A stretch of DNA of 64,000 nt from Armatimonadota bacterium (GTDB taxonomy: Bacteria > Armatimonadota > UBA5829 > DTJY01), in contig JARYMF010000005.1 of NCBI GenBank assembly GCA_029907255.1, positions 124,001-188,000 on the forward strand, written 5' to 3'. Position 1 is the stretch's first letter; each line of letters begins with the position of its first letter. Both the position numbers and the translations under genes were made by a program. Shown piece after piece: positions 44,918 to 50,746 of the stretch. The notes beneath the pieces were generated by a model that searched no databases, was not told the DNA's origin, and saw only the letters and a list, made by a program, of their open reading frames with translations.

Positions 44918-46459
44918 TTACTTTAGAGCATAAAGCTCCCTCAACGAGGCAGGCAATGCGCGAATAACATCGCCTGCAAGCATTCCGGGCGACCCAACAT
45001 CTCGCTCGGCGATCTCGCCCGCCCTACCATGAACATATACGCCGCACGCTGCAGCATCCCACGGACTTATTCCTTGGGCTAGCAACCCCCCGATTGCGCC
45101 GGCAAGTACGTCTCCTGTGCCACCTGTCGCTAGTGCAGATGTACCTGTGGGATTAATAAGCACTCTGCCATTAGGATGCGCGATTACCGTTCTAGCTCCT
45201 TTAAGAACAACTATGCTTTGAAATCGCAGCGCTGCCGTTTGCGCCGCTCCTACCCTGTCAGACTGAATGCTCGCAATATCAGTTCCAAGCAGTCGCGCCA
45301 TCTCACCAGGGTGTGGAGTAAGAATAAACTCGGCATGGCTACTCTCCAGGACGCTGGTATTCTTGGAAAGCGCATTTAGCCCATCTGCATCAATCACCGC
45401 AGGTTTTTTGAGGGCTTTTATGAAGGCGTGGACAAATTCGCAAGTTTCCGGGTGGGTACCTAATCCACAGCCAAGCACTACGGCATTCGCCTTATCTGCA
45501 AGCTCAAGTGCTGCGTCCAAAGCTTGAGTGCTGATTGACCTCTCAGGGGTTTCGGGAAGTCCGCTGGTCATAACTTCGGTAAGTTTGACAGCCATAACAT
45601 CCTGCAAGCTTTTTGGAACGCCAACGACTGCAAGACCTGCGCCCACACGCAGAGCTGATTCACCAGCCATCGCTGCCGCACCGGTCAGCCCTGCCGAACC
45701 AGCTATAACAACGACTGTTCCAAAAGTTCCCTTATGCGCATTTGGAGGTCTAGCTGGAAGTTTTGCGGCAATATCTTGGGCATCGGTGAGCTCAATATAT
45801 ACCTCATCATAGAGTTGTTTTGGAATGCCAATGTCCCCGACAACCAGACGGCCTGCATACTCAGCCCCAGGGTAAATAACAATTCCAAGTTTAGGGAGAG
45901 CAAACGTCACCGTAACATCAGCCTTCACGCAAACACCCAATACTCGCCCAGTGTCGGCATCGACCCCGGATGGGATATCCACTGCTATAACAGGCCGTCC
46001 GGAATCGTTGATTGCCTTAATTATCTCTCTGGGAACGCCTGTAACCTCTCCCTTGATACCAGTGCCAAATATCGCATCAATAATTAAATCGGCTTGGGCT
46101 AGGAGCGATACGACCGCCGAGGCCTCAGAGATTTGCCGAATATCTGCGCCTGTGTTGCGGAGGATTTCAAAGTTGGTCTTCGCATCACCCTTGATTTTTT
46201 CTGGATGGGCAAGGAGAAGAACGATAACCTGGGCGCCGGCATCGCGAAGATGGCGGGCGGCAACAAACCCATCACCGCCATTGTTACCGCTGCCAGCGAC
46301 AACGATTACTAGTTTGCCAATAACACGGCCGAGAATGCCGCAAGCTGACTCGAATACATGCCGCCCGGCGTTCTCCATCAACACAATACTTGGAATGCCG
46401 AATTCCTCAGCTGCACGCCTATCGAAGTCATGCATTTGTTTTGCAGTTGCTACCTTCAA
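44918..46459 (-). CDS. nnr: bifunctional NAD(P)H-hydrate epimerase / ADP-dependent dehydratase
   Basis: About 513 residues. The N-terminal YjeF_N epimerase (~1-215: ENAGRHVFE, GSGNNGGDGFVAARHL) is fused to a C-terminal ribokinase-like dehydratase (~225-513: GCGLGTHPET, LTPHPGEMARLLG, GTGGTGDVLAGAIGG). It repairs hydrated NAD(P)H. TTG at 46459 is preferred with AGGTGG 5 nt upstream; GTG at 46468 is an in-frame alternative lacking one. It follows acpS, a widespread pairing. Confidence 0.93.
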   Translation of the reverse strand: MKVATAKQMHDFDRRAAEEFGIPSIVLMENAGRHVFESACGILGRVIGKLVIVVAGSGNNGGDGFVAARHLRDAGAQVIVLLLAHPEKIKGDAKTNFEILRNTGADIRQISEASAVVSLLAQADLIIDAIFGTGIKGEVTGVPREIIKAINDSGRPVIAVDIPSGVDADTGRVLGVCVKADVTVTFALPKLGIVIYPGAEYAGRLVVGDIGIPKQLYDEVYIELTDAQDIAAKLPARPPNAHKGTFGTVVVIAGSAGLTGAAAMAGESALRVGAGLAVVGVPKSLQDVMAVKLTEVMTSGLPETPERSISTQALDAALELADKANAVVLGCGLGTHPETCEFVHAFIKALKKPAVIDADGLNALSKNTSVLESSHAEFILTPHPGEMARLLGTDIASIQSDRVGAAQTAALRFQSIVVLKGARTVIAHPNGRVLINPTGTSALATGGTGDVLAGAIGGLLAQGISPWDAAACGVYVHGRAGEIAERDVGSPGMLAGDVIRALPASLRELYALK

Positions 46460-46503
46460 GCTAACCACCTACAGCGCAATTATACACTAAAGCTTTGTAC
46501 CCC

Positions 46504-46860
46504 TCAATCCGACACAACGATCGCATACGCCACTGCATGAGTGCGGCAGTGGGATATGCTCACAAGCACCCTGCCTTTGCCCAGGGCTTCTGCTGCCTTA
46601 TTTCGCAGGTGCACAACCGGTTTCCCAGCAGCATCAGGAAGCACCTCGACGTCACGCCACCTCAGTCGTGTGCCAAGTGCTTTAGCGATAGCTTCTTTAG
46701 CGGCAAATCTCCCCGCCAACCGCTCTGCCCAGCCAGCATGGGAAAAGCAATAAGCCGTCTCGGCATCTGTAAACACCCTCTCTGTAAATTTTGGATGCCG
46801 AGCCAGGCAATCCTTGATTCTGTTTACTTCAATTATATCGGTACCAATGCCTATTATCAT
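46504..46860 (-). CDS. acpS: holo-[acyl-carrier-protein] synthase
   Basis: 118 residues, standard size. GIGTDIIEVNRI with Asp8 and RFAAKEAIAKALGT with the Mg-binding Glu define AcpS. HVxISHCRTHAVAYAIV-type ending is present (VLVSISHCRTHA). It transfers 4'-phosphopantetheine from CoA to ACP. First gene of the long minus-strand run that continues into the FHA genes. AGGGG lies ~9 nt before ATG. Confidence 0.95.
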   Translation of the reverse strand: MIIGIGTDIIEVNRIKDCLARHPKFTERVFTDAETAYCFSHAGWAERLAGRFAAKEAIAKALGTRLRWRDVEVLPDAAGKPVVHLRNKAAEALGKGRVLVSISHCRTHAVAYAIVVSD

Positions 46861-47022: not shown

Positions 47023-47394
47023 GTGGCAGAAACCTGGCATGTCTCAAAACTAGATGTGGATATTCACTATATTGATGATATTCCCATAATTGAAGCCAAG
47101 GGTGAATGCGACTTAATCACTAGCCGAAAATTAAAGGAGGCCGCCGATAACCTCCTCGAAACGGGTCGAAACAAAATTATTTTCGATTTAAGAAATATGG
47201 TTTACATTGACAGCGCAGGATTCAGAGTTCTCCTTGATACGAAAAATAGAGCAACCGAAAAGGGTGGCGATATTGTTCTAGTTAGCTTAACTGAACCCGT
47301 TGACCGAGCATTTAAACTCCTTCGCTTGGATGAACTTATTATTAGAGCCGAAACAATTGAAGAAGCTATCAAGCACCTGAAATCAATTGCCTAA
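47023..47394 (+). CDS. STAS-domain anti-sigma factor antagonist
   Basis: 123 residues, one STAS domain. The phosphorylatable serine is Ser64 in YIDSAGFRVLL. It fits SpoIIAA/RsbV-type antagonists that release a sigma factor or target from an RsbW-like kinase. The only such kinase in view is at 18962-19465, 28 kb away. The start is GTG with GAGGAGG about 7-9 nt upstream. It is divergent from acpS across 162 bp. No strong promoter pair could be placed in that gap, though a TATATA lies at 46993-46998. Confidence 0.9.
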   Translation: MAETWHVSKLDVDIHYIDDIPIIEAKGECDLITSRKLKEAADNLLETGRNKIIFDLRNMVYIDSAGFRVLLDTKNRATEKGGDIVLVSLTEPVDRAFKLLRLDELIIRAETIEEAIKHLKSIA

Positions 47395-47521: not shown

Positions 47522-47893
47522 TTGAACAGCAGTACTGGTATAAAGGATTATGTGGGCATTCGCAAAGGTCTTGACGGCCAATCATTGGGTGAGCTGGAAG
47601 CTCAAATTCTCGACATTGTGTGGGACTTGGAACCACCTATTACCGCATCAAAAGTTTTTAAAATAATGTATCCTAGACGGGAGCTATCTTATTCGACTAT
47701 CATGCTCACAATGTCGAAGCTAGCGCGAAAAGGTTTTTTAATTCAGGAGCGATCTGGCAACAAAAAGACCGATGCTTTTGTGTACACTCCAGCAATCTCA
47801 AGAATGGAAATGGCAACAAAGCTTTTGGAAGAAATCTCAAAGCAAATTTTCCGAAAGCCTTTTGTTCAGGCTATCCGCGACCTTGTTAAGTGA
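47522..47893 (+). CDS. BlaI/MecI/CopY-family transcriptional repressor
   Basis: 123 residues. The winged-helix part (~20-90) reads LGELEAQILDIVW, ITASKVFKIM, LSYSTIMLTMSKLARKGFL, typical of Penicillinase_R, with a C-terminal dimerisation helix. No BlaR1 sensor or beta-lactamase is adjacent, so the inducer pathway is unknown. The start is TTG with AAAGGAG ~8 nt upstream. A dyad operator lies on its promoter. It is a one-gene unit ended by a strong bidirectional terminator. Confidence 0.88.
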   Translation: MNSSTGIKDYVGIRKGLDGQSLGELEAQILDIVWDLEPPITASKVFKIMYPRRELSYSTIMLTMSKLARKGFLIQERSGNKKTDAFVYTPAISRMEMATKLLEEISKQIFRKPFVQAIRDLVK

Positions 47894-47956: not shown

Positions 47957-48634
47957 TTATGCGCTTAGAGCCTCGGCAATTTTATCTGCGAACTCATAAT
48001 CGGGCAATGCACCCTCAAACTGAACTTTGTCGTTAATCACCACGGTCGGTACTGCGCTGATGTCATACTTGCTGACTAGATGCGGAAACTCAGTTGCCTC
48101 GATTGCATCCGCCACTATGTGCTCGGGGTTCTCGATTGCCATTTGGTGGGCAATCCGAACAGCAGACGGGCAGTAAGGACAAGTTGGTGTGACGAATACT
48201 TGTATATGGACATCCTGGTTGATACCTCGGACCTTTTCCTTAGCTTCGTTTGATAAATCTGTGATGTTTTTCGAAACATCCACAATGTCCTCGATTAATG
48301 AGCTGAATTCAAACCCACCAGGAATACCAAAGTACCGAATGCCCTTAATACTGTCAGCCATTAGTATAATCGCCGGAAGCTTGTCAATTCCAAGCTTAGC
48401 CACCATTTCATCGGATGGCGTGTATTCCCTATGCTCAACCTTAATTAAATCTGAAAGCTCAGCCACCTCGTCAACTAGCTGAGCTGTTTCCTTGCAGAAC
48501 TCGCACTCCAAGCCAGGCAGCTCCAAGTTCTCAGCCTTTTCAGTAAATGCAACAACTGTTACCTCATTCTCTAATTCATCTGCAAACTTTGCCTTGAGAA
48601 ACTCTTTATCTTGCTCGGGAATCAATTGCCTCAT
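47957..48634 (-). CDS. protein disulfide oxidoreductase with two thioredoxin folds (PDO-like)
   Basis: 225 residues. Two thioredoxin-fold units carry CEFC (Cys44/47) and CPYC (Cys152/155), with cis-Pro loops KLPAI (Pro87) and AVPTV. This matches PDO/glutaredoxin-like proteins common in thermophiles and in anaerobes, where they act in cytoplasmic disulfide exchange. AAGGAG lies 9 nt before ATG. The gene starts inside the last 29 bp of the flavoprotein gene upstream, which is its likely reductase. Confidence 0.9.
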   Translation of the reverse strand: MRQLIPEQDKEFLKAKFADELENEVTVVAFTEKAENLELPGLECEFCKETAQLVDEVAELSDLIKVEHREYTPSDEMVAKLGIDKLPAIILMADSIKGIRYFGIPGGFEFSSLIEDIVDVSKNITDLSNEAKEKVRGINQDVHIQVFVTPTCPYCPSAVRIAHQMAIENPEHIVADAIEATEFPHLVSKYDISAVPTVVINDKVQFEGALPDYEFADKIAEALSA

Positions 48635-49532
48635 TTTCGGACATCTCCTTTTCTTTTAGTTTATACACATACCTTGCGGCGCTCAATGCAGCCACCTGAC
48701 CTTCACCAACGGCTTTTGCAATTTGGAACGGCCCGCCTGTGCAATCACCAGCAGCGAAGACACCAGGGATGCTTGTCGCCATCTGTCTATCTACCTTTAT
48801 AAAGCCGTCGGTCACTTCAAGTCCCGAAAGTAATGTTGTCACCGGAACGGCTTCGCGTATGATAAATATACCATCGGCATGTATCTCCCCAATCTGTGTT
48901 TTGATGGCGCGAGCACGTGCATCTCCAATTATTGCCACAGGATTCGCGTGAATAACCTCAACCGACTTGTCGAGCATTTGCACATTTTCGTATGTTGCAA
49001 CATACGTCACACGCCGAGCAAATCCGGCCAGTGAATTCGCTTCCTCCTCTCCCTCTGGTATATAACCTACGACAACTACGTCCTTGCCGCGGAACAAAGC
49101 CCCATCGCAAGTAACGCAGTAGGAAACTCCTTTACCAAGATACTGTTCCTCACCCGGCAGTACCCGCGATTGGGCCACGCCTGTGGTAATAATAACCGTT
49201 CGGCTTCGATGAACTTCGCTGTCGGTGGTAACCATGAAATTATTGTTACCATCTTGCGTAACATTGAGTGCCCGTTGTTTCTTATATAAGAAGCCTGTGT
49301 TCGAGAAGTGGCGCATGAAATGACAAGCTAATTCAGCACCAGTAACTTTGGGCAATCCTAAGTAATTCGTCACCTCAGGGTAGATTTTCGGCTTACTTGC
49401 AGGTTCGCGGAAGTCAAACGCAATTCCTTTTAAATTTCTTGCTTTTGCATTTACCGCCGCTGATAAGCCTGCCGGCCCTGCGCCTATTATCAAAACATCC
49501 CAAATTTTGCCTCCGAACACACCGGAAACCAT
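48606..49532 (-). CDS. thioredoxin-reductase-like flavoprotein lacking NADPH-binding motifs
   Basis: 308 residues. The FAD motif GAGPAG (17-22), the redox pair CVTC (Cys139/142) and the C-terminal FAD motif GVFAAGDCTGG are those of low-Mr TrxR. The second nucleotide-binding loop reads VVVVGYIPEGEEEA (152-165) where NADPH enzymes have GGGxSA, and the HRRxxxR region is TYVATYEN. This resembles pyridine-nucleotide-independent relatives (FFTR/DTR types). The electron donor may be ferredoxin or another carrier. It overlaps the PDO gene by 29 bp. Confidence 0.88.
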   Translation of the reverse strand: MVSGVFGGKIWDVLIIGAGPAGLSAAVNAKARNLKGIAFDFREPASKPKIYPEVTNYLGLPKVTGAELACHFMRHFSNTGFLYKKQRALNVTQDGNNNFMVTTDSEVHRSRTVIITTGVAQSRVLPGEEQYLGKGVSYCVTCDGALFRGKDVVVVGYIPEGEEEANSLAGFARRVTYVATYENVQMLDKSVEVIHANPVAIIGDARARAIKTQIGEIHADGIFIIREAVPVTTLLSGLEVTDGFIKVDRQMATSIPGVFAAGDCTGGPFQIAKAVGEGQVAALSAARYVYKLKEKEMSENEAIDSRAR

Positions 49533-49759
49533 TATCTAAAACCCCTGCTGCAGTGGTTAATTTAATATATTTTGTTTTTACCCACTTATTCCTTCTAAAA
49601 ACTTTTTCCTAACTTATTTTCATATAAAACATTCATGCGCCTAAGGAGTCAGCTTTCCCAGGGTTACTTGAGAGCTTAATCCAAATGCCAACTGACTCTT
49701 CCTTGGATGAAAACCGAACATCAGTTATCCTGTTTGAAGTTCTTTCTTTGTTTGGTATT

Positions 49760-49789
49760 TGACTTTGGTTGTACCAGGCTAATAGTATA
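49760..49789 (+). promoter_or_regulatory. candidate trxB promoter
   Basis: TTGACT (49760-49765), 18 bp, TAGTAT (49784-49789), 24 bp before the trxB ATG. The rest of the 281-bp gap holds only an imperfect repeat, AAGGAGTCAG near 49643 against CTGACTCTTCCTT near 49690. Confidence 0.5.
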
Positions 49790-49813
49790 GTATGGTAGAA
49801 TTAGCTAACAAAG

Positions 49814-50746
49814 ATGAAAAGCTTGGATTTATACGACGTCGTCATAATCGGAGGTGGGCCTGCCGGGCTTTCGGCAGGTATTTATGCAATGCGGTCGCGC
49901 CTAAAGACCATACTGCTTGAGAAATACTTACCAGGCGGACAGATGGTTCTTATCGACCACATAGAAAACTACCCTGGCTTCCCTGGAGGAACCTCTGGTC
50001 TTGAAATTACATCACGAATGGAAGAACAGGCTCGCTTGCTGGGACTCGAAATAATCTCAAGCGAGGTCCAATCGCTAGACCTTTCGAGACGTGACAAGGT
50101 AGTCCATTCATCAACCGGCGATTACCATACCAAGACCATTATTATTGCATCAGGTGCGACGCCACGTCGATTAGGACTTCCAAATGAAGACCGGCTTACC
50201 GGCAAAGGAGTCTCATACTGCGCCACATGCGATGGCATTTTCTTCAAAGGAAAAGAGATTGCGGTGGTTGGCGGTGGTGATTCCGCAGTTCAAGATGCAG
50301 TATTTCTTAGCAGATTTGCTAACAAGATTGCTATCATCCACCGCAGGGATACTCTGCGAGCTTGCAAGATTCTTCAGGAACGCGTTTTTAAAAACCCAAA
50401 AATCACAGTCAAATGGAATACGATCGCCGTCGAAATTCTCGGCAAAGAAAAAGTCGAGGGATTAGTAATCGAAAATGTAGCGACCGGCAAACGAGAAACC
50501 CTGCCAGTCGAGGGAGTATTTGTGCTTGTCGGCACGGACCCGAACACGGAGTTTGTTCATGGGGCTGTGGTAACTGACGAACAAGGATACATATTAACTA
50601 ACGAGGAAATGCAGACTAACGTTCCCGGCGTCTTCGCGGCTGGCGATTGCCGAAGAAAATCCCTACGCCAGTTGATCACCGCCGCCGCTGACGGTGCAAT
50701 AGCGGCTGTATCGGCGGAGAAGTATATCGAATCGCTGGAACAATAA
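49814..50746 (+). CDS. trxB: NADPH-dependent thioredoxin reductase
   Basis: 310 residues. FAD motif GGGPAG near the N-terminus, GGQMVLIDHIENYPGFP, redox pair CATC, NADPH loop VVGGGDSAVQDA, HRRDTLRACK and C-terminal GVFAAGDCR are canonical TrxB features. It reduces thioredoxin at the expense of NADPH. It is divergent from the motif-poor paralogue. No thioredoxin gene is adjacent. The Shine-Dalgarno is weak (AAAG). Confidence 0.95.
   Translation: MKSLDLYDVVIIGGGPAGLSAGIYAMRSRLKTILLEKYLPGGQMVLIDHIENYPGFPGGTSGLEITSRMEEQARLLGLEIISSEVQSLDLSRRDKVVHSSTGDYHTKTIIIASGATPRRLGLPNEDRLTGKGVSYCATCDGIFFKGKEIAVVGGGDSAVQDAVFLSRFANKIAIIHRRDTLRACKILQERVFKNPKITVKWNTIAVEILGKEKVEGLVIENVATGKRETLPVEGVFVLVGTDPNTEFVHGAVVTDEQGYILTNEEMQTNVPGVFAAGDCRRKSLRQLITAAADGAIAAVSAEKYIESLEQ

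Follow-up and report, generated by a model that had tools for sequence, protein, structure and literature searches.

Ferredoxin-dependent reduction of thioredoxin by a flavoenzyme was first reported in Clostridium pasteurianum, according to the work cited in PMC5627308. Clostridial ferredoxin-dependent flavin thioredoxin reductases (FFTRs) use ferredoxin as electron donor and TrxA as partner (PMC10880999, PMC5627308, PMC8469568), and trxA shares operons with their genes (PMC10880999). In the catalytic cycle described for the family, the FAD of an open form of the enzyme accepts electrons singly from ferredoxin, upon which the domain carrying the CxxC motif turns inward, is converted to the dithiol and turns outward again to reduce the carrier (PMC12796991, PMC8469568, PMC5627308). 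Ferredoxin is also the known donor of the Gloeobacter violaceus FFTR or DTR (5J60, 6XTF), whose NADPH motifs are likewise lost. The small protein disulfide oxidoreductase PDO has so far been described behind NAD(P)H-dependent thioredoxin reductases, as in Pyrococcus and Saccharolobus, where it serves as the thiol carrier (PMC7278568).

Here we analyse a locus within a 64,000-nucleotide stretch of a contig of an Armatimonadota bacterium (the window). One of its open reading frames is, with high probability, a clostridial-type FFTR gained by a single family outside the Clostridia; in the window genus, its gene would share a transcript with a PDO gene, and the translation of the two is probably coupled. 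The enzyme type as such is already known; what is unusual is its host and the gene with which it is paired. In contrast to the archaeal systems, in which the reductases use NAD(P)H, the enzyme linked to PDO in the window is of the ferredoxin type.

A constrained FFTR gene overlapping a PDO gene

The core of the locus consists of the following features:

47957..48634, minus strand: PDO, 225 aa, with CEFC in the N-terminal and CPYC in the C-terminal half (TIGR02187 251.6 bits, cut-off 185)
48606..48634, minus strand: 29 bp shared by the two genes (3' end of FFTR, 5' end of PDO), exactly as in the sister species
48606..49532, minus strand: FFTR-type flavoprotein, 308 aa, assigned by motifs, structure matches and tree
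48645..48650, minus strand: AAGGAG within the FFTR gene and 10 nt upstream of the ATG of PDO, read from the sequence as the likely PDO ribosome-binding site
49533..49813, no strand: 281-bp spacer separating the divergent FFTR and NTR genes, in which an Rfam search found no element
49814..50746, plus strand: canonical NAD(P)H-type thioredoxin reductase (NTR, TrxB, P0003) with VGGGDSAVQDA and HRRDTLR (TIGR01292 397.9 bits, cut-off 343.45)

The original prediction had described a flavoprotein with an intact CVTC and both FAD motifs, and GAGPAG (residues 17-22), CVTC (139-142) and AAGDC are indeed seen in the window FFTR, which carries AAGDCTGGPFQIAKAVGEGQVAA near its C terminus. Both NAD(P)H motifs, GxGxxA and HRRxxxR, are missing. 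In an alignment to the neighbouring P0003, VGYIPEGEEEA takes the place of VGGGDSAVQDA at the GGGxSA position and YVATYENVQ that of IIHRRDTLRACK at the HRRxxxR position, which confirms the replacements noticed earlier. P0003, the canonical TrxB previously placed about 280 bp away (the gap is 281 bp), is 32% identical to the window FFTR and shares its fold, FAD sites and CxxC, but differs in its GGGDSAVQDA and HRRDTLR. The thioredoxin-binding site is FF in the NTR and LF in the window FFTR, a point against the reading favoured here. Set against the criteria for a diflavin-linked disulfide oxidoreductase, DDOR (a second flavin and loss of the thioredoxin-binding GR/KG site), rather than against DDOR sequences, the window FFTR retains a GKG ahead of CVTC, a feature that tells against DDOR.

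The second species of the window genus keeps all three reading frames, their order and the overlap, at 95% amino acid identity, and dN/dS between the two species, at a dS of 0.2, is 0.13 for FFTR, 0.05 for PDO and 0.07 for NTR. Because reading frames, overlap and order are conserved in the sister species and dN/dS is low, the FFTR gene is a real gene under constraint; a sequencing error or a decaying copy is thereby ruled out, and a decayed pseudogene was rejected on the dN/dS of 0.13. That the protein could be a degenerate, functionless thioredoxin reductase heading for loss, with its NADPH motifs already gone and its gene missing from most of the family, is hardly credible in view of this purifying selection, of intact catalytic and FAD sites and of identical replacements in all clostridial FFTRs. 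Since this signature is common to clostridial FFTRs, chance is excluded as well.

The predicted overlap with the PDO gene was found at 29 bp. It shows that FFTR and PDO are co-expressed, in the window genus only, and we infer co-regulation. The intergenic region towards the NTR gene (49533..49813) contains weak inverted repeats, from which no operator could be assigned.

Membership in the clostridial FFTR clade

Which enzyme class the window FFTR belongs to follows from several lines of comparison. Searching the PDB with its sequence returned the C. acetobutylicum FFTR chains 6GNA/6GND/6GNC at 227-246 bits, followed by the NADPH-independent 3CTY at 143 bits and, at lower scores, NTRs; a search of solved structures with a 52-member profile gave 427-433 bits for FFTR chains versus at most 230 for the rest. 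On TIGR01292, the NCBIfam model for NADPH thioredoxin reductase, the window FFTR scores 184.4 bits, below the cut-off of 343.45. In a tree of 53 rows, the three FFTRs of the family and 28 clostridial-type rows make up one side of a branch supported at 100/99, with 6GNA and 6GNC on this side and the NADPH reductases, including the window NTR, on the other. Thus, where clustering with ordinary NADPH thioredoxin reductases would have spoken against the original prediction, the window FFTR groups with ferredoxin-dependent FFTRs instead. The three family members lie amid Bacillota sequences, and an Intestinimonas sequence adjoins them with weak support (86/82).

The window FFTR and clostridial FFTRs have the diagnostic residues NYLGxP, VGYxxEGEEEA and AAGDCTGxPxQxxKAxGEGQVAA in common, and in the pseudo-NADPH domain, which bears the CxxC within an FAD-binding thioredoxin reductase fold, deletions of 12 and 10 residues occur as in clostridial FFTRs. 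Foldseek and VIA-align comparison of an AF2 model (mean pLDDT 93.8) ranked FFTR structures first, with Z 33.6-34.7 and rmsd 3.0-3.1 Å, versus Z of about 27 or less and rmsd of about 10-15 Å for the NADPH reductases listed, where the high rmsd is due to another domain orientation. The model thus resembles open FFTR structures at 3 Å, although such a conformation is weak evidence, as the network may echo its training structures.

Compared with the C. acetobutylicum FFTR (6GNA, 6GNB, 6GNC, 6GND), the window FFTR is about 40% identical over its full length and shares the CxxC, the FAD motifs, the pseudo-NADPH replacements and deletions, the FFTR-specific C-terminal motif and, as the AF2 model suggests, the open-form fold. 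It differs in having a host outside the Bacillota, a PDO rather than a thioredoxin gene as neighbour, a 12-residue C-terminal extension running into the PDO gene and CVTC instead of CATC. Of the FFTR and DTR enzymes with which a phylogeny was suggested earlier, the clostridial FFTRs form the clade of the window FFTR, and DTR lies outside it: the Gloeobacter enzyme has an open conformation similar to that of the model, but belongs to a different clade and has a full-length pseudo-NADPH domain and a C-terminal Trp tail, which is missing from the window FFTR. Motifs, structure matches and tree therefore bear out a TrxR-like flavoprotein without NADPH motifs. A wholly new enzyme class was rejected because of the FFTR match.

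Probable electron donor and acceptors, and a proposed mechanism

The idea of a ferredoxin-fed enzyme, also raised in the original prediction, is well supported by this family membership, from which we infer ferredoxin to be the probable donor, although ferredoxin dependence has been assayed in only a few FFTRs, which are about 40% identical to the window FFTR. NADPH independence might also go along with a different donor, such as flavodoxin, F420 or another, which is assumed of DvTRi and has been demonstrated for MjDFTR, an enzyme that depends on F420. Thioredoxin reductase relatives with other donors do exist (PMC5627308, PMC7278568), and the fold of Desulfovibrio vulgaris TRi is also close to the AF2 model (5NII, Z 27.1). 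We regard this as improbable, however, since tree and diagnostic residues place the window FFTR inside the clostridial FFTR group and 5NII reaches only 118.8 bits compared with 246. More generally, 5NII and the Thermoplasma thioredoxin reductase (3CTY) are NAD(P)H-independent relatives as well, but with far lower scores (119 and 143 bits versus 246).

Candidates for donating to and accepting from a ferredoxin-dependent FFTR are present in the window genome. It encodes a 56-aa 2[4Fe-4S] clostridial-type ferredoxin, whose best matches include 1CLF from C. pasteurianum, and three POR gamma-type domains; COX1 had no match in this genome. A single WCGPC thioredoxin is encoded elsewhere on the window contig. 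The PDO consists of two thioredoxin folds with a CxxC in each, scores above the TIGR02187 cut-off and has 1J08 and 1A8L as its nearest solved structures.

With these components, 2-oxoacid:ferredoxin oxidoreductases would generate reduced clostridial-type ferredoxin, which would pass two single electrons to the FAD of the FFTR in its open form. The CVTC domain would swing onto the flavin, take up both electrons and swing out, a motion proposed by analogy with the family cycle, and would then reduce a CxxC of the PDO, probably the C-terminal CPYC, by dithiol–disulfide exchange, as well as the WCGPC thioredoxin of the cell. The FFTR is thus expected to be a ferredoxin-fed reductase of both PDO and thioredoxin. 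The adjoining NADPH-type TrxB may feed the same carriers from NADPH, and if so, the cell could draw on ferredoxin or NADPH alike to keep its thiol carriers reduced.

The locus in four genera of one family

Whether the pair is a dedicated one can be judged from the locus in four genera of one family, i.e. the window genus, G002, G003 and G004. Besides the genes listed above, this comparison includes:

44918-46468, minus strand: NAD(P)HX epimerase/dehydratase, synteny marker in the locus comparison
46504-46860, minus strand: AcpS, synteny marker in the locus comparison
47023..47394, plus strand: STAS-domain protein, synteny marker in the locus comparison
47522..47893, plus strand: BlaI/MecI/CopY-type (Penicillinase_R) repressor, convergent with PDO and found beside NTR in three of the four family genera

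The window genus has the order NAD(P)HX repair, acpS, STAS, BlaI-type repressor, PDO and FFTR, with the NTR gene diverging. G002 (99% complete) shows this order minus the FFTR, which is found nowhere in its genome; this leaves the NTR as the one reductase of this kind that might act on PDO there. G003 (99% complete) has STAS and FFTR facing the NTR and is without the repressor; no PDO occurs anywhere in its genome but thioredoxin is present, and its FFTR must therefore have another acceptor, most simply thioredoxin. G004 has acpS and the repressor next to an NTR that comes with neither FFTR nor PDO. The NTR is thus constant over the four genera, while FFTR and PDO vary independently, and since they come and go independently, neither partner needs the other. 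The BlaI/CopY-type repressor is a possible regulator of this redox locus.

The dedicated reductase–PDO pair of the original prediction is weakened by these arrangements, with the PDO of G002 beside an NTR and the FFTR of G003 beside an NTR and accompanied by thioredoxin in the genome. A couple confined to the window genus, in which the FFTR would pass its electrons solely or mainly to PDO and the adjoining NTR would serve thioredoxin, would be in line with the 29-bp overlap and the ribosome-binding site inside the FFTR gene in both species, with a locus where no thioredoxin gene adjoins the FFTR, unlike in 40 of the 80 Bacillota-type loci, and with the linkage that arose apart from this one in G050 and G112 of the phylum, where a Gloeobacter-type FFTR lies directly downstream of PDO. 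Nevertheless, we consider it unlikely given the same locus in G003 and G002 and the WCGPC thioredoxin of the window genome; with an NTR and this canonical thioredoxin also present, the FFTR need not serve PDO. An exclusive FFTR–PDO partnership is therefore probably not what the locus reflects, but its modular make-up argues only against exclusivity and is compatible with PDO as a substrate in genomes that have both genes. Four related genera with differing subsets of FFTR, PDO and NTR at one redox locus also represent a natural experiment, which makes testable both the charging of PDO from ferredoxin and the way in which a cell selects ferredoxin or NADPH as its source for reducing thiols.

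Linkage of PDO with FFTR genes

A PDO gene lay next to the FFTR gene at none of the best 80 Bacillota-type FFTR loci listed, and a thioredoxin gene was found within 300 bp at 40 of these. Linkage to thioredoxin is thus common among FFTRs but not defining, and the window FFTR has PDO as its neighbour instead. Just one of 39 FFTR-bearing genomes searched has a PDO above the cut-off, on a contig other than that of its FFTR. In this PDO, from Paradesulfitobacterium ferrireducens (L224:1484-2143), the C-terminal CPxC-type site reads PTUPHC, with an in-frame TGA where the first Cys would stand, so that it is apparently a selenocysteine form. In the same species, the FFTR gene is directly preceded by one (L126:1994-3328) for an NTR-like protein of 444 aa, which has an additional DCPPC motif and weak similarity to thioredoxin and is possibly an NTR–Trx fusion.

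PDO occurs in 33 of 291 genomes of the phylum of the window, and five of 30 PDO loci inspected have it beside a thioredoxin reductase homologue: those of both species in the window genus (beside FFTR and NTR), of G002 (beside NTR), and of G050 (L054:6994-8885) and G112 (L174). In the latter two, which belong to another family, a Gloeobacter-type FFTR lies downstream of PDO in the same orientation, after gaps of 15 bp and 94 bp, respectively; both reductases are without NADPH motifs and grouped with Gloeobacter FFTR. In one phylum, FFTR-type enzymes from two clades thus have PDO genes as neighbours, which, with so few lineages, is no more than suggestive. A full-text search of the open-licence literature found no description of an FFTR–PDO pair, and the pairing looks new.

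With two FFTR clades separately linked to PDO in one phylum, we tentatively propose, as a reading with somewhat less than an even chance, a ferredoxin-to-PDO reduction pathway, in which PDO would be charged from low-potential ferredoxin and a parallel NADPH branch would operate at the window locus.

Origin and distribution of FFTRs in the phylum

The clostridial-type FFTR is present in three of 291 genomes of the phylum, i.e. in the two window-genus species and in the genus of G003, which belongs to the same family (60% identity), and the clostridial FFTR family is thereby extended to another phylum. The best 80 relatives listed in a scan of species genomes, being the top of a sample, are nearly all from Bacillota; a search of viral contigs yielded no relative of the window FFTR. 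The simplest reading, argued from distribution and tree only, is horizontal gain by the ancestor of the family; alternatively, most of the phylum may have lost FFTR. The FFTR gene matches its neighbours in GC and GC3, with no compositional sign of recent transfer. An AU test did not reject a single origin of the clostridial and Gloeobacter FFTR types, and as its p of 0.097 is not decisive, we make no claim that NADPH use was lost twice independently.

Gloeobacter-type FFTRs without NADPH motifs are found in about 23 of the 291 genomes (435-549 bits versus at most 350 for the rest; L012, L015, L017, L018, L020, L194-L209, L211, L213 and L216). Cyanobacterial FFTRs have been reported as monophyletic, with FFTR not found in the other groups analysed there (PMC9025218), and the Gloeobacter-type enzymes of this phylum bear on the question of their origin. 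Many of them end in DW or DY, resembling the cyanobacterial Trp tail. In G034 (L012:297-3908), such a gene lies near genes for a SoxA/TsdA-type cytochrome c and an Fe/Mn superoxide dismutase.
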